Virus record (IMG/VR): IMGVR_UViG_3300031972_002446
Span: 1-64,000 of that record
Length of the DNA: 64,000 nt
Strand: one strand, 5' to 3'
From: a virus
The translations under genes were made by a program, and so were the position numbers. A model generated the notes under the pieces. That model was given only the letters and a program-made list of their open reading frames with translations, had not been told where the DNA came from and ran no database searches. Positions 1 to 23,676 of this stretch are shown piece by piece. The number at the start of each line of letters is the position of its first letter. Within the stretch, counting starts at the first letter, position 1.

Positions 1-518
1 GTATCATCTGTAGAACCTTCGCTTTGCCCTCCATTATAATCAATGAAACAAATTAAATTATTTAAATTTTCTTTAGGAGCATACATAAGAGCTTCCCATA
101 TTTGACCTTCTTGTATTTCTCCATCGCCAAGTATACAAAATACAAAACCTTCTTCTTTTTTAATTTTCTTAGCCAAAGCATGTCCTATACTTATGCTAAG
201 ACCTTGACCTAAAGATCCTGTGGTTGCATCTAATAATGGCAATCTTAATTTGTCTGGATGTCCTTGTAGCGGTGAATCTATTTCTCTAAATAATTTTAAA
301 TCTTCATCCGATATTTTTCCTAATTCATGTAGTGCTGCATATATAATTGGTACAGCATGTCCTTTTGATAATATCAGCTTATCCTTACCATTAATATCAT
401 AATCGTTGTAAAGAACGCTAATAAGTTCAGCAATAGAGAAACTACCACCAATATGGCCTGATTGTTTTCCATAAACCATATCTAGTACTTTTATTCTTAA
501 TATATTAGGATCAAGCAT
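1..518 (-). CDS. transketolase N-terminal (ThDP-binding) subunit, partial
   Basis: The reading frame starts at ATG 518-516 and runs off the left edge, so only about 172 residues are visible. It shows the SKGHA segment and the thiamine diphosphate signature GDGEIQEGQIWEA, as in the N-terminal half of split transketolases. Transketolases move two-carbon units between sugar phosphates. The start overlaps the stop of the SIS isomerase gene (511-513), so the two are probably translationally coupled. Next to an isomerase and a nucleotidyltransferase it probably supplies an unusual sugar precursor for a glycan rather than central metabolism; that role is inference. The C-terminal subunit should lie just left of the window. 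Confidence 0.85.
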   Translation of the reverse strand, partial: MLDPNILRIKVLDMVYGKQSGHIGGSFSIAELISVLYNDYDINGKDKLILSKGHAVPIIYAALHELGKISDEDLKLFREIDSPLQGHPDKLRLPLLDATTGSLGQGLSISIGHALAKKIKKEEGFVFCILGDGEIQEGQIWEALMYAPKENLNNLICFIDYNGGQSEGSTDD

Positions 519-16724: not shown

Positions 16725-17761
16725 GTAAATAACAACCCCCAACTATCAGACACTTTATTAGTAATTTTTACATCTTCTTTTGTCTTATCAATTTCTTCAT
16801 CTTCTTTTGTCTTATCAATTTCTTCAAATTCTTTTTTAAAGAAATAAGAATATTCAATTCTCATTTGATTTGTTTGCATCTCGTAGGGAACCCAAAAAAT
16901 AGATTTACCAGAAGAATAATGTATAACATATATTTTTTCTTGTATGTCAGAGATATACGATCCAGTATCTTTAAGATTAATTGTATATCGAGGCCACTCC
17001 TCTGTATTAATATCCTTTCCATTAATTCTATATATCACTGGGTCTGCTGGATGGGTTATCTCTTCATAATTCAGTTCCTCATATTTTAATCCCATGTCCA
17101 TTAAAGTAAACTGACCACAATACTGTTCATTAAAATACTCATAACCCTCAAGCATTGTTTCGTCAATTTTTTTTGCTTCTAAAAGTTTACGACCTTTCTT
17201 CGAGAGATACATACGCTTTTTGACTATATTATTATACAGACTTTTTTTATTTCTAATAGATTTTGAGTCAATTATAAATTGCCCACTGTTCATATTTTTA
17301 ATATCAGGATATAATATATCATTAACAGGATCAATACATGATAAAGTCCATAACTTACCGTTTTCATATTTATTAAAAAAATCAGATGGATTTCTTACAA
17401 ACATAGAGTCGCAATCTAGGAAGAAAATTTTATCATAACCCATCTGCAACGCTTTTTGTAAATGATACCATTTAGACATATATGAGTCATGCTTGTAAGG
17501 TCTTTTGCGAACGACCTTATACTTATTAGTGTAGTCTGTTTTCACACACTTAACAAAATCAAAATCTGTAGATATATTATATTTATCATTTAATTTAAAA
17601 TGATTTATATCAATATTATCATAAAGATAATAAAAAACTAAAACATCGAAAGAATTATCATAAACTTCTGATAAAGTCTTTAAAGAATAGTATGCCATAG
17701 AATAATATTTCATATCCCATTCATTATCTATAAACATTGAATAATATAAGCAGTTTTTCAT
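16721..17761 (-). CDS. glycosyltransferase, GT8-like, with repeated acidic tail
   Basis: A 346-residue protein. SKWYHLQKALQMGYDKIFFLDCDSMFV around residues 95-120 includes the DxD motif (DCD) and the preceding Lys-x-x-x-Leu helix of GT-A retaining transferases; MNSGQFIID follows, a common GT8-type feature. The C-terminus carries two direct copies of a nine-residue EEIDKTKED unit, a likely recent duplication that extends an acidic, disordered tail. It precedes DUF6065 and follows RuvB by ATGA overlap. Confidence 0.7.
   Translation of the reverse strand: MKNCLYYSMFIDNEWDMKYYSMAYYSLKTLSEVYDNSFDVLVFYYLYDNIDINHFKLNDKYNISTDFDFVKCVKTDYTNKYKVVRKRPYKHDSYMSKWYHLQKALQMGYDKIFFLDCDSMFVRNPSDFFNKYENGKLWTLSCIDPVNDILYPDIKNMNSGQFIIDSKSIRNKKSLYNNIVKKRMYLSKKGRKLLEAKKIDETMLEGYEYFNEQYCGQFTLMDMGLKYEELNYEEITHPADPVIYRINGKDINTEEWPRYTINLKDTGSYISDIQEKIYVIHYSSGKSIFWVPYEMQTNQMRIEYSYFFKKEFEEIDKTKEDEEIDKTKEDVKITNKVSDSWGLLFT
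16773..16826 (-). repeat. two-copy 27-bp tandem repeat
   Basis: Two exact, adjacent 27-bp copies (16773-16799 and 16800-16826) within the 3' part of the GT8-like gene, encoding the duplicated acidic nine-residue unit. In frame, so it changes length without breaking the gene; probably replication slippage. Confidence 0.85.
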
Positions 17762-18657
17762 ACTGGGGCTTTTCTAGATATAATTCTACCTTTTTGTGTT
17801 CTGTGTATATATCCCATTCTTATCATATAAGGCTCTATACTATTCTCTATAGTCTCTTGTGCTATACCTGTCATGCTAGAAATACTTTTTATACCTAAAG
17901 GAATTGTTCTATTTTTCTTTAATATCTTAATATATGTAATATCATTTTCATCGAAACCATTGCAATCTATACCTTGGCTAGAAAACACTTCATCAATATC
18001 ATTTTTTTCTGGATAGTATTCTGTATAACTTTTATACCACTGTAGTCTTGCATTTAATATTCTAGGAGTACCTTTGCTTCTTTTTGCTATTTCAAAAGCC
18101 TGCTCTTTGCTTAAAGATATACCTGTTCTATCAGCATTCGACCTTGCTAGTTCTGCTAAGACATCTAGACTATAAAAAGAAAGATGCTCTTTAATTGTGA
18201 AGCGATCATAAAAAGGCTGACTTAAACTACCCCCACTAGTAGTTGCCCCAATTAAAGTAAACACTGGAACATCAATAGAGTCTGGTTTATTTTCTACAAG
18301 CATATCTATACGAAAATCTTCCATCACAGGATACAAAAATTCTTCTACTAACTTAGGTAATCTGTGTATCTCGTCTATAAATAATACAGATTTAGTTGTC
18401 ATACCTATAAGATAGGGTATGATATTCTTAGGGCTACGAATCATAGCAGCGTTTACTGTATAAATACTGACACCCATTTCGTTAGCAATAGCATTAGATA
18501 AGGTCGTCTTACCGAGGCCGGGAGGCCCGTCTATTAATATGTGTGGCATAACGCCATCATTTTTTTTACTACCAGCACAGAGGATTCTCAGGCGAGATAC
18601 CACATCATCCTGACCTATAACGTCTTTAAAAGAACAAGGTCTATACGCATTGCCCAT
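17758..18657 (-). CDS. ruvB: RuvB Holliday-junction branch-migration ATPase
   Basis: About 299 residues matching RuvB along the whole length: Walker A GPPGLGKTT, Walker B VLFIDEIHRLPKLVEEFLYP, sensor 1 LIGATTSGGSL, sensor 2 GTPRILNARL, and a C-terminal winged helix ending YMIRMGYIHRTQKGR. RuvB hexamers drive branch migration with RuvA at Holliday junctions. ATG 18657 is chosen over 18663 because GGAG is then 9 nt upstream. Bacterial RuvB is about 335-350 residues, so this one is slightly compact. No complete RuvA or RuvC is seen; the overlapping upstream gene ends in a RuvA domain III-like segment. RuvB is rare in phages. Confidence 0.92.
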   Translation of the reverse strand: MGNAYRPCSFKDVIGQDDVVSRLRILCAGSKKNDGVMPHILIDGPPGLGKTTLSNAIANEMGVSIYTVNAAMIRSPKNIIPYLIGMTTKSVLFIDEIHRLPKLVEEFLYPVMEDFRIDMLVENKPDSIDVPVFTLIGATTSGGSLSQPFYDRFTIKEHLSFYSLDVLAELARSNADRTGISLSKEQAFEIAKRSKGTPRILNARLQWYKSYTEYYPEKNDIDEVFSSQGIDCNGFDENDITYIKILKKNRTIPLGIKSISSMTGIAQETIENSIEPYMIRMGYIHRTQKGRIISRKAPV

Positions 18658-19117
18658 CTGCATTTACTCCAATCTTTTGTATTGCTAATTTTACCAATAT
18701 TTTAACATCCTGATGTTTAGTTTCATCAAAAATTTCTTTAATCATTTCTGATGCTTCTTTTTTCTCGAAACCGTATTGTTCTAAAATAGCCGTACATTGT
18801 TTGAGAACTTTCTTATCAATCTTTATTTTCTTAGGTTCTGTAGAAGTTTGAGGTCTTTGCTCCTGATTGCTTGCAGAATCATTTTCCTCATTTTCTTTTG
18901 AGAAAAAGTCAATTTTACCTTCTTTATATATAATCTCAATATTTTTAATAGGTTTTGGAACAATGATAGATTTACAATCACATACTATCTTGTAGTTTTT
19001 TGTTGAAGCCTCAACAGAACTAAGCCAATGATTAAAACCACAGTTAGGACATATATACTCATAGTAAATATCGTGGCTACTAGGTTTTGCTTTAAGTATT
19101 TTCTTGATCTTTTTCAT
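18641..19117 (-). CDS. zinc-ribbon protein with RuvA domain III-like C-terminus
   Basis: A 158-residue protein. The N-terminal third has a zinc ribbon (ICPNCGFN ... VCDCK). A charged, disordered middle (ENDSASNQEQRPQTST) leads to residues about 108-152, where AILEQYGFEKKEASEMIKEI matches the RuvA C-terminal RuvB-binding domain pattern (A-L-x-x-L-G-Y-x-x-x-E-A-x-x-x-V-x-x-I). The gene overlaps ruvB by 17 nt. I infer that it is an adaptor that recruits RuvB to DNA through the zinc ribbon instead of RuvA domains I-II. The similarity is by eye only. Confidence 0.65.
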   Translation of the reverse strand: MKKIKKILKAKPSSHDIYYEYICPNCGFNHWLSSVEASTKNYKIVCDCKSIIVPKPIKNIEIIYKEGKIDFFSKENEENDSASNQEQRPQTSTEPKKIKIDKKVLKQCTAILEQYGFEKKEASEMIKEIFDETKHQDVKILVKLAIQKIGVNADGQCV

Positions 19118-19514
19118 TTTTATTTACCCAAAATATAAAGTCATTACGTTCTGCATCAAAAGCAGTTTCCAATAATCCTTTTCCAACCATACGCTGAACA
19201 ATATTTGATACAAACCTAGAATTTATTGCTTCCAAGATGTTTTCGTAATCCTCATCCCGTATGAATAATCTGATCTGTTTTGTTTTTTTATGTCTTTTTC
19301 TTATGATAAATTCATTAAAAATTATTTTAATTTCTTTGTGAGGTAAAATATCATTCATCTCTGCTAGTTCTATGTTATTGAACTTTGATAGGTTTTGAAA
19401 AAAGGTTTGATCTTCTTGATCTCTTTTATTAGGATCAAAATTGGAATAGATGAGTCGCCTGCTAAAGTCTATCAATTTATCTAAATTCTCTATTTCTAAC
19501 CAGTCTTGATCCAT
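19092..19514 (-). CDS. hypothetical protein (140 aa) upstream of the RuvB pair
   Basis: A charged, helical 140-residue protein (MDQDWLEIENLDKLIDFSRRL) with no recognised domain. The segment VSNIVQRMVGKGLLETAFDAERNDFIFW resembles a winged-helix strand-turn. It overlaps the zinc-ribbon gene by 26 nt, so it is probably co-expressed with RuvB and may act in the same recombination or replication step. Confidence 0.6.
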   Translation of the reverse strand: MDQDWLEIENLDKLIDFSRRLIYSNFDPNKRDQEDQTFFQNLSKFNNIELAEMNDILPHKEIKIIFNEFIIRKRHKKTKQIRLFIRDEDYENILEAINSRFVSNIVQRMVGKGLLETAFDAERNDFIFWVNKNEKDQENT

Positions 19515-19525
19515 AATATCTACCT

Positions 19526-19924
19526 TTAATTTAAATTATCGTACAGACCTTTATAGTACTCTGGCTGTTGAACAAAATAAGATGCGTGTGATTGAATATG
19601 TTTTTTATATTGCTGATCTATCTTATCATTGATAAAATATTTAATTTTCCAAATTGCTTCATCATAATTATTATTACCTAGATATACAAAGCATTTATCG
19701 CTTAAAGAACCTTTGTTTTGCAGGTTATTACCAACTAACCATACATCGTCTTTCTCTTTTATTATATCCGACATAGCATCTTTAAGCCATTCTTCCCAAG
19801 CGGCCCAATCTATTTGAAATTCTTTGGGATATCCATGTTCATTATATTCATTAAATTGCCCGCCATCAGGATAATATTTGTATTCATCATCATCATAATC
19901 TTCATGTTCTGGTTCGTGATGCAT
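19526..19924 (-). CDS. acidic hypothetical protein (132 aa)
   Basis: Begins MHHEPEHEDYDDDEYKYYPDGG, a very acidic and Tyr-rich head, then a helical region with IDWAAWEEWLKDAMSDI. No domain is recognised. A GGGGTATAGTAAG element about 50 nt upstream resembles the GGTGTAT class loosely. Acidic phage proteins of this type may be DNA mimics or inhibitors, but nothing specific supports that here. Confidence 0.5.
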   Translation of the reverse strand: MHHEPEHEDYDDDEYKYYPDGGQFNEYNEHGYPKEFQIDWAAWEEWLKDAMSDIIKEKDDVWLVGNNLQNKGSLSDKCFVYLGNNNYDEAIWKIKYFINDKIDQQYKKHIQSHASYFVQQPEYYKGLYDNLN

Positions 19925-20096: not shown

Positions 20097-20936
20097 TTAA
20101 AATTCTTCGTCGTCTTCGTCTTCAAACTGATCCCAGTAATCTTCGTCGTACTCATCATAAACTGTTGAGTATTCATCTTCATCAACATAAGAGTCTGCCT
20201 CAAATTCAGCCTTATAAAGAGGCTTCGGTAGTTCTCCCTGATAAAGACCGACTACTTCATATTTACAAGTGCGAAGTTTTTCACAGTTGCAATCGCTAGG
20301 AACACTAACAACATCTTCAGGATTGATTTTAACAATCACAATATTATCACCAGCATCCACATTGCCATAATTTGCAACATAATTTAATGCCCCAGCATGA
20401 AGTCCAGCAGAACATCCTCTACCTCTATTGTCGTCTACCTTTGCTCGACGCATTTCGCAGACCTGACCAACCTTATTGTCGAATGTTCCTTTCCACTTGT
20501 CTTTAAAGTCACTATTGACTGCCTTGTATGCAAGGAAGCACCCATCTTCAGTGATAGGAAGATTTTCATGCTCCAAGAAGTCATACAGTTCTTGCTGGCT
20601 CTGCATACTTGGATTCTCCATAAGATTTTCCAAGAACTTTACAAGAGGCTCAAAGGGTAATCCCTTACTCATAAACTCTATAATTCTCTTGCTGATGCTG
20701 CCGTGAACTTCTTCACCCTCAAACATCACCTTGCCATTTACGATTGATACTTGTCCGTCACTAAAGGTAGTAATCGCTTTTTCAATATCTACCAGTTCTA
20801 GCAACTCATCTTCTGTTGCTGTTGGAAGTGCTTCCAGAATTAACTTGTAATTAGTATGATCTGGAATTACTTGGTGAGCCTTATTCTTTAAGATCACCGT
20901 TAAGTTACCGTCAACCCACATAAAAGGAACACTCAT
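20097..20936 (-). CDS. rIIB: rIIB-like protein
   Basis: A 279-residue homologue of phage T4-type rIIB proteins. The middle region (ENLPITEDGCFLAYKAVNSDFKD, then GRGCSAGLHAGALNYVANYG and IVIVKINPEDVVSVPSDC) is the conserved core of this family; the C-terminus is highly acidic (YDEDYWDQFEDEDDEE). In T4, rIIA and rIIB act together at the membrane or on DNA to block exclusion by resident prophages. It lies directly after rIIA (25-nt gap with GGAG-type ribosome site), as in T4-like phages. Confidence 0.85.
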   Translation of the reverse strand: MSVPFMWVDGNLTVILKNKAHQVIPDHTNYKLILEALPTATEDELLELVDIEKAITTFSDGQVSIVNGKVMFEGEEVHGSISKRIIEFMSKGLPFEPLVKFLENLMENPSMQSQQELYDFLEHENLPITEDGCFLAYKAVNSDFKDKWKGTFDNKVGQVCEMRRAKVDDNRGRGCSAGLHAGALNYVANYGNVDAGDNIVIVKINPEDVVSVPSDCNCEKLRTCKYEVVGLYQGELPKPLYKAEFEADSYVDEDEYSTVYDEYDEDYWDQFEDEDDEEF

Positions 20937-20961: not shown

Positions 20962-23607
20962 CTAAACCAAATTTCCTACTGCTGTTCTCAGTTCGCTGAG
21001 TTCAACATTGTCAAACCATTTATCTCGACCATAGTAACCATTGTTGTGAATATCTGTAGGAGAATCATTCTTGATCTTCTCAATATCCAACTCATCGTTA
21101 CCACTAACAATATACTTTAGTATCGGTGAACTGTCAATAGCACCTTTAAGAATTTTTCTAAGAGCATCCATCTTAGGCAGGGTCTTGATGATCTCCTGAC
21201 TGCGTGATTTCTTACCAGATGGCAATTCTTCGTAACCATATAGTTTCTTAAATTCACAAAGCATATTGTCTAGTTTAAGAATTTTAGTGTGAATATCTTT
21301 TGCATCTTCTACGATGTTGTATTCACCTGCTATATTATTTACATGCTGTTCAAGTCTTTGCCTACTAAATACCCTAAGATTAAAGTATTCACTATTTGCA
21401 ACCTGAGCAAAGTAGTACATAAGCAGCCATTGATCCATAGCCTTGGTGACTGTCTCGTTTTTAATATAGTCTTTGTAGTCAAGACCATAGATATTTAAAA
21501 GATTAGCCATTACAACTCTATCTGAACGCTCAGGCTGACTACTCCAACTTCTTTGCTTCTTAAAATCTGAAGTAGAATACTCTTTGTCACAGTAGTTTAT
21601 GACTGCATCATACTTACCTACTTCTTCTCTTAATTTCTTAGACATTTTTGCAGCCTTACTCTTAAACCATTTGTTAAAGCAAACTAGATTGATACCTTGC
21701 TTTTGTAGTTTAGATACAGAGCCTTGCTTGATAGCATAAATATTATATTTCTTGAATAGCAAAGCCCCTAAGACGTTATCTTTACCTGCTAGACTATAAA
21801 TACTATGAATGGCGGGATAAGGGCTAACAGAAGCATATCTAGTAATAGGAACATAGATTACTTGGTCAGCATCTTCTAGTTCTTCTACCAGACTATCACT
21901 TAATTCACTAAGCATATTAGAGTCATTAAGATTATTACCGCTAAGATCAGAACACTCATCCGGCTGATAATCTTTAGAACTTTTTAGTAGAAAGATTTCG
22001 TCTTTACTAATCATACCAGCACCAGTACCAGTTCTTCCCTTGGTGCTAGATTGCAGCAGACTACGGTACTCAGAGATATTCTTGACATTCTCTTCTCCAC
22101 CAATATCTTTGATAAGTTTAGTAAAACCTTCGCCAGAATCTTCTGCTGGGTTTTGAGTGTCTACCATAAGATATGCCATACAATCATTCTGATTACAATA
22201 TCTAATAGCAATCTTCTTGGCAGTTTCAGGACTTCTAGTATCGCAGACAAAGAAGGCTAGAGGATTACTCTTACGCTTATTATCCCAATAATTAGACGAT
22301 CTACCCTGTAGACTTTCATGATGGATTTTATCTGTTAGATATAGCATTCTCTTGGAACGATGACTAGCAGTACGATAATTAATAACATACAACTGTTTAT
22401 GCTTACCTAATTTATAATCTAAATCTTCACCAGCAGACAAATCATGTTTTTTACCTTCTGGATCGACCCACTCTGCACCAGCAGTATATCCACCAGCAAT
22501 ATCAGCCAACTTATAATATGTCTGGTAAGCATCTATAAGATTAGTACACTCTTCAACTTTGGTTGACATATTGCTCTTGAGTTGCAAATAAATATCTTGA
22601 GTCTTTTCTCTAAGAGTTTTAATAACACCCTTGGTATACTGTAGACCTTCTCTACTAACATCCATCTCTAGTTCACCAATATCGCAGGTAATTTCAAGAT
22701 ACATGCCAGAGTTTAGAATCTCTTTGACTAAGTTAGTCCAATTATCTACATCTGCTTTCTTAAATGCTCTGTTCCATCGCTGGATAGCATCACTCTTTTG
22801 CTCTTGTTCTTCTTTGCCGATAATTTTATCGGAATCTACTGGGTACGCAATATTACCCATGATAGCGACAATACCAGCACCGGGACTATTATATGTGCTA
22901 GGATATTTGTCATCATTATCAGAGATTCTACCAACACGCCAGTTCTTCCCTTCTATAATAACATTATGGTGACAATACGCATGGTTCTGAAGAAGATTAC
23001 AAGTACCACCCTCCATCATTGGCTTAGTCTTAAAGTAATGAAAGATTCTCTTAGACTTATTAGTAAACTCTTGGAAATCACTTTGTTTGACTGCAAAACT
23101 AATTTCAAGACCGTTAGGTTCATCAGTATGAGTGACCCCAAACAAACTTAGACTAGGTACTCCACCTTCATCCATAGCCGCTATGTAGTTGTACGCTTTG
23201 CCATTGAAGAAAGAAGTTGTGCTAAAACTCTTAGTGTAAGCAAATGGACTCTTAGAACCAAGACCAAGACAACCAGTAAAATCGTTACTGTCATTCTTGT
23301 TACTAGCCCCATAAGTTGTATAGAGTTCTTCCATGTCTTCTTGAGAAAGTCCTGTACCATAATCTCTCACCGTAAAGTTAGGGTTGGCTTGCGTAGGCAA
23401 ACTAACCTTGAAAGGATTTCTATTCCCTGATGCAACATGAGCATCGTTAGCATTTGTAGACAGTTCACGAATAACTGCCATTACTTTATCAGAATACAAT
23501 GAGTCTGATAAAATCTTGAACATTTTACTTGTTTGAGCAATACTAAACTGATTGCTTGCATCAACACCGTTTGAGTGAATTTCAACTGTACGATCTGCGA
23601 GTTTCAT
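20962..23607 (-). CDS. rIIA: rIIA-like GHKL ATPase
   Basis: About 881 residues from ATG 23607, chosen because TTTTGGAG lies upstream and the promoter at 23648-23676 excludes the longer frame. The N-terminal 230 residues carry GHKL ATPase motifs: N-box ELSTNANDA, FTVRDYGTGLS, and GLGSKSPFAY glycine lid. These match rIIA proteins and topoisomerase/Hsp90-type ATPases. The rest is family-specific. T4 rIIA is about 725 residues, so this one is longer. Strong sigma70-like promoter suggests early expression. Confidence 0.88.
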   Translation of the reverse strand: MKLADRTVEIHSNGVDASNQFSIAQTSKMFKILSDSLYSDKVMAVIRELSTNANDAHVASGNRNPFKVSLPTQANPNFTVRDYGTGLSQEDMEELYTTYGASNKNDSNDFTGCLGLGSKSPFAYTKSFSTTSFFNGKAYNYIAAMDEGGVPSLSLFGVTHTDEPNGLEISFAVKQSDFQEFTNKSKRIFHYFKTKPMMEGGTCNLLQNHAYCHHNVIIEGKNWRVGRISDNDDKYPSTYNSPGAGIVAIMGNIAYPVDSDKIIGKEEQEQKSDAIQRWNRAFKKADVDNWTNLVKEILNSGMYLEITCDIGELEMDVSREGLQYTKGVIKTLREKTQDIYLQLKSNMSTKVEECTNLIDAYQTYYKLADIAGGYTAGAEWVDPEGKKHDLSAGEDLDYKLGKHKQLYVINYRTASHRSKRMLYLTDKIHHESLQGRSSNYWDNKRKSNPLAFFVCDTRSPETAKKIAIRYCNQNDCMAYLMVDTQNPAEDSGEGFTKLIKDIGGEENVKNISEYRSLLQSSTKGRTGTGAGMISKDEIFLLKSSKDYQPDECSDLSGNNLNDSNMLSELSDSLVEELEDADQVIYVPITRYASVSPYPAIHSIYSLAGKDNVLGALLFKKYNIYAIKQGSVSKLQKQGINLVCFNKWFKSKAAKMSKKLREEVGKYDAVINYCDKEYSTSDFKKQRSWSSQPERSDRVVMANLLNIYGLDYKDYIKNETVTKAMDQWLLMYYFAQVANSEYFNLRVFSRQRLEQHVNNIAGEYNIVEDAKDIHTKILKLDNMLCEFKKLYGYEELPSGKKSRSQEIIKTLPKMDALRKILKGAIDSSPILKYIVSGNDELDIEKIKNDSPTDIHNNGYYGRDKWFDNVELSELRTAVGNLV

Positions 23608-23647
23608 CTGTGATAGTCTCCAAAAGTTAATTTCTTGTGATAGCCTA

Positions 23648-23676
23648 AGTATACTATCGGATACATAGGTTGTCAA
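23648..23676 (-). promoter_or_regulatory. sigma70-like promoter of rIIA-rIIB
   Basis: Minus strand TTGACA (23676-23671), 17-nt spacer, TATACT (23653-23648), about 40 nt before the rIIA start. The spacer ends TCCGATAG, a relative of the GACGATA element found in other promoters of this window. Confidence 0.75.

Follow-up and report, generated by a model that had tools for sequence, protein, structure and literature searches.

A phage RuvB encoded beside a zinc-ribbon protein that carries RuvA domain III: a candidate RuvA-free adaptor

A RuvB gene and its overlapping partner

The window analysed here is the first 64 kb (positions 1 to 64,000) of a virus record of 165,940 bp, the phage contig IMGVR_UViG_3300031972_002446, and our subject is a pair of overlapping genes within it, one for RuvB and one for a 158-residue protein, hereafter the adaptor, in which a zinc ribbon and a linker precede a C-terminal domain homologous to domain III of RuvA (Table 1). 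The RuvB gene encodes 301 residues that match, in order, the Pfam families RuvB_N (expectation value, E, 4.7e-47), RuvB lid (1.1e-7) and RuvB_C (5.4e-21), all above the cut-offs; in a sequence search of the PDB, its best relatives were RuvB chains, matched over about 300 residues with 218 bits. The top PDB folds for an AlphaFold model of the protein (predicted local distance difference test, pLDDT, 83.5) were also RuvB; the global template modelling (TM) score was low, which probably reflects uncertain placement of the domains. The 24 RuvB homologues compared keep the Walker A and Walker B motifs, the trans-acting Glu/Asp pair and the C-terminal DNA hairpin, with a variant Walker A, GPPGTGKT, in a single one (L034); the window protein has a Lys in place of one Arg of the DNA hairpin. 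Identity to the related viral RuvB proteins is 45-74%, and the gene is under purifying selection (ratio of non-synonymous to synonymous substitutions, dN/dS, 0.02-0.09). By every sequence feature tested, the protein is a RuvB. The first-pass annotation had recognized this minus-strand gene as a "near-complete" RuvB; the assignment and the position hold, but the gene is complete, since all three Pfam domains are present.

The best match of this RuvB in the PHROG database is phrog_168, the phage clamp loaders (E 2e-20), which share its AAA+ core; unlike them, the window protein has a RuvB-type lid and a winged-helix C-terminus. Could RuvB and the adaptor have taken over as a clamp loader or helicase loader of the phage? 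In each of 20 contigs RuvB is the sole clamp-loader-like AAA+ protein found, and the window contig encodes a DNA polymerase III alpha subunit. Against a loader stand the winged-helix DNA-binding domain and the DNA-pulling hairpin, both kept by RuvB, and the lack of any beta clamp in 14 contigs, which implies that the polymerase may use the clamp and loader of the host. We considered such a replacement and regard it as extremely unlikely.

The pair is found in a large family of uncultured phages; throughout, viral RuvBs are counted as distinct RuvB proteins (n = 84). The adaptor gene lies directly upstream of RuvB, on the same strand, for 73 of the 84; in most loci the two genes overlap by a few bases, and rIIA is followed in a conserved order by rIIB, two small genes, the adaptor and RuvB. 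The 17-nt overlap reported for the window applies to a RuvB start at the second Met codon (18657), whereas the longest reading of the gene gives 23 nt. The second Met is favoured by the homologues and has a GGAG nine bases upstream, a motif that lies just three bases from the first ATG. Because the ribosome site for this likely start codon falls within the adaptor gene, the arrangement suggests that translation of the two proteins is coupled. In a quick tree, a well-supported branch separated 73 distinct phage RuvBs from the 80 closest bacterial RuvBs found, which argues for an old acquisition of RuvB by phages. Bacterial contamination or recent capture of a host gene was rejected, as the 73 phage proteins form their own supported side of the tree and the gene sits within a phage operon.

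Table 1. Coordinates of the RuvB and adaptor genes, their parts, and the neighbouring operon genes in the window
Feature	Position	Strand	Basis or remark
RuvB, AAA+ motor with RuvB lid and winged-helix C-terminal domain	17758..18663	-	Pfam, PDB matches, motifs
RuvB Walker A, GPPGLGKTT	residue 46		
RuvB Walker B, FIDEIHR	residue 95		
RuvB trans-acting residues	E115/D116		
RuvB presensor-1 hairpin	residues ~118-131		
RuvB DNA-binding hairpin, RTQKGR	residue 288		
Adaptor (158 aa): zinc ribbon, linker, RuvA domain III	18641..19117	-	
Zinc ribbon with basic N-terminus (residues 1-68; net charge +7; C23, C26, C46, C48)	18914..19117	-	
Linker, probably flexible (residues ~69-100)	18818..18913	-	pLDDT <50 at 72-95
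RuvA domain III-like three-helix bundle (residues 101-153)	18659..18817	-	profiles and model (pLDDT ~90)
140-aa gene, function unknown, overlaps adaptor	19092..19514	-	upstream of adaptor; next to RuvB even without adaptor
132-aa gene, function unknown	19526..19924	-	conserved in operon
rIIB-like gene	20097..20936	-	operon
rIIA-like gene	20962..23676	-	operon

RuvA domain III without the RuvA core

A profile built from 22 adaptor homologues was compared with 177,635 PDB sequences, and the first seven matches were all RuvA (best 1ixs_A, E 3.1e-4). When the adaptor family was aligned by hhalign with RuvA from 40 bacterial loci, the match (Prob 95.6, E 1.3e-8) was confined to domain III. A Foldseek search with the AlphaFold model of the adaptor placed at rank 1 the same chain, 1ixs_A, a RuvA domain III crystallised with RuvB (TM 0.79, probability 0.99); its weak E-value (0.4) is what a domain of about 50 residues would be expected to give. 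The Pfam family RuvA_C, scanned over the whole 166-kb contig, had one match at E<=5, the adaptor gene (E 0.008), and the sole match in a relative (G005) was again the adaptor (E 2e-4). Conversely, RuvA accounted for 22 of the 23 matches when the adaptor profile was run on loci around bacterial ruvB. Thus, the C-terminal domain of the adaptor and RuvA domain III are homologous, with a resemblance above chance; a chance origin was rejected because the PDB profile, hhalign, Foldseek and the contig scan all returned RuvA. The segment had been picked out as RuvA domain III-like in the first pass, and a structural match was indeed found, ranking first in both the sequence-profile and the fold searches.

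The scores of individual sequences count against this assignment: the single adaptor sequence reached only E 0.11 with RuvA_C, below the cut-off, and no more than seven of the 22 members matched that family at E<=0.5. As the single-sequence score is weak, the domain III call needed the family alignment. The PDB holds many ubiquitin-associated (UBA)-like domains from other proteins, and the shortness of the domain together with these weak matches would fit a bundle with some other UBA-like fold, whose likeness to RuvA is convergent, in a gene for an unrelated zinc-ribbon regulator. No other UBA-like protein was listed in the adaptor-profile search of the PDB, though, and with four routes converging on RuvA we hold convergence to be most improbable.

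The remainder of the protein is not RuvA. Across 67 distinct homologues neither the four Cys residues of the zinc ribbon nor one Pro varies, in agreement with the zinc ribbon originally proposed, and this half of the protein is basic across the family (median charge +7). The adaptor is also under purifying selection (dN/dS mostly 0.1-0.4) and evolves faster than RuvB. Pfam gave no match in the adaptor to RuvA_N (domain I) or to the helix-hairpin-helix domain II, and the model has no helical domain between the zinc ribbon and domain III. Moreover, RuvA_N was found in none of 20 contigs (that of the window and 19 relatives), in a search whose control was positive in 10 of 14 known genomes. The earlier suggestion that a zinc ribbon stands in place of RuvA domains I and II is borne out by these searches. 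Like RuvA (PF01330/PF07499), the adaptor has a C-terminal domain III preceded by a flexible linker; unlike RuvA, its N-terminal two-thirds are unrelated. With domain III present and domains I and II absent, the adaptor is not a RuvA. Because the domains that build the RuvA tetramer are missing, we do not expect the adaptor to form a similar tetramer around a four-way junction.

Proposed role of the pair

Bacterial RuvA uses domain III to bind a hydrophobic surface on RuvB, made up of helix alpha3 and the presensor-1 hairpin; the domain tethers the motor and also promotes nucleotide exchange and activates the ATPase (PMC9477746). The predicted docking of the adaptor domain III on the phage RuvB is well supported by homology, given the identity of the domain, the adjacency of the genes for 73 of the 84 distinct RuvBs and the retention of the RuvB hairpin. 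We take the two genes to encode a phage RuvB motor and its dedicated adaptor, together a RuvA-free system for branch migration or fork remodelling, and we give this reading a probability of roughly 0.6. By analogy with the solved RuvA-RuvB complexes, domain III would dock on this surface of helix alpha3 and presensor-1 hairpin, tether the hexamer and stimulate nucleotide exchange; the basic zinc ribbon, which replaces the RuvA oligonucleotide/oligosaccharide-binding (OB) fold and helix-hairpin-helix domains, would bring the motor to a branch, fork, junction or DNA-bound phage protein; and the motor would pull duplex DNA, so that branches are migrated or remodelled in recombination-dependent phage replication. 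A RecA-like protein encoded on the contig fits a role in recombination. The minimal branch-migration system envisaged in the first-pass annotation is our working hypothesis.

The pair resembles bacterial RuvAB in combining a RuvB motor that has all its domains with a partner that has RuvA domain III, and in the adjacency of the adaptor and RuvB genes, which follow each other in that order like ruvA and ruvB in many bacteria, and it may share part of the RuvAB mechanism. It differs in that the junction-binding, tetramer-forming domains I and II are absent and a zinc ribbon is present instead, and in being phage-encoded, in an rIIA-rIIB operon on a contig where RuvC was not found. Among the phage branch-migration helicases, T4 UvsW and T5 D10 are superfamily 2 helicases and not RuvB-type hexamers with an adaptor. 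What the pair has in common with them is its likely task, phage-encoded branch migration (for T5 D10, see PMC5180179). The literature searched contained no example of a RuvA-free adaptor for RuvB.

Textbooks present RuvAB as the machine of branch migration, and the junction-holding core of RuvA is treated as inseparable from the loading of RuvB. A natural RuvB whose adaptor has only the docking domain would separate the two roles of RuvA, the tethering and activation of the motor and the holding of the junction, each of which could then be tested directly.

Several further observations weigh against this reading. The presensor-1 hairpin, although kept, is shorter in the phage RuvB than in the well-studied bacterial RuvB; neither RuvC (PF02075) nor endonuclease VII was found in the window contig; zinc ribbons often bind proteins instead of DNA; and no adaptor was detected beside 11 of the 84 distinct RuvBs, on several separate branches of the tree, so that the adaptor is either not strictly required for RuvB or replaced.

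The protein-binding habit of zinc ribbons bears on a second possibility, in which the adaptor docks RuvB, as a generic duplex translocase, onto a phage protein of the replisome, recombination, nuclease or packaging machinery, and the ribbon is a protein-protein module. It is consistent with this that the ribbon gave no specific match to a known DNA-binding ribbon (best PDB matches eL42 and AgmX, E 0.03-0.04; a search of a viral fold library was uninformative), and that a distant relative carries a membrane-anchored head on domain III (see below), which points to swappable heads. The basic charge of the zinc-ribbon half, on the other hand, suits nucleic acid, and the two small upstream genes are the only constant candidates for the genes of a partner. 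We consider protein docking unlikely, though well worth keeping in mind.

Since RuvA binds RuvB through domain III (PMC9477746), a free copy could also serve as a decoy that occupies the RuvB or RuvAB of the host and blocks its recombination or repair during infection, the phage RuvB being unrelated to this function. The tight linkage and overlap with the phage RuvB in 73 of 84 cases speak against a decoy, for which a zinc ribbon with all four Cys residues conserved would also be superfluous, and make this explanation very unlikely.

Loci without the adaptor and the wider setting

In the contigs without an adaptor beside RuvB, none was found elsewhere in the whole records even at E<=10, with one exception; most records are fragments, which makes such absences provisional. 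The most distant RuvB (L034, on contig G022) has, about 21 kb away and right after rIIB, a protein with an N-terminal membrane segment (called by eye) and a C-terminal RuvA_C domain (E 9.6e-9, above the Pfam cut-off). Two further contigs have a relative of this protein after rIIB, with no RuvB in the stretches read; proteins of this kind lie directly downstream of rIIB at L134:1492-1938 (-) and L230/L231:7995-8357 (+). RuvA domain III may, we tentatively suggest, be a portable RuvB-docking tag from which this lineage has made two or more other adaptors, one bearing a zinc ribbon and one a membrane anchor, dispensing with the junction-binding core of RuvA. If so, RuvB motors would be put to use on DNA structures, or in locations, to which RuvA never brings them.

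The 140-aa gene that overlaps the adaptor is retained in nearly all contigs that have lost the adaptor. A small HNH protein of the endonuclease VII type is encoded in nine of 14 relatives, mostly about 7-20 kb from RuvB (loci L220-L227, pieces of G014, G019, G004, G013, G011, G005, G002 and G007), and is a possible junction resolvase of the clade.

The window contig encodes, besides the pair, rIIA, rIIB, a split DNA polymerase III alpha, a DnaB helicase, a primase, a RecA-like recombinase, PhoH and a terminase. Sequenced phages are distant (best terminase identity about 25%), and neither the adaptor nor its upstream neighbour had a match in 50,697 phage records. RuvB matches in the INPHARED records MT83xxxx and OR84xxxx lie on unannotated fragments from phage collections, many of them fecal or phage preparations, and may be bacterial DNA. 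The polymerase is split into two genes with an exonuclease gene in between (L041:12091-16434, contig ~133-137 kb). Within the window, the stretches at 5-17 kb and 29-60 kb hold many genes resembling those for glycosyltransferases, sulfotransferases and sugar epimerases.
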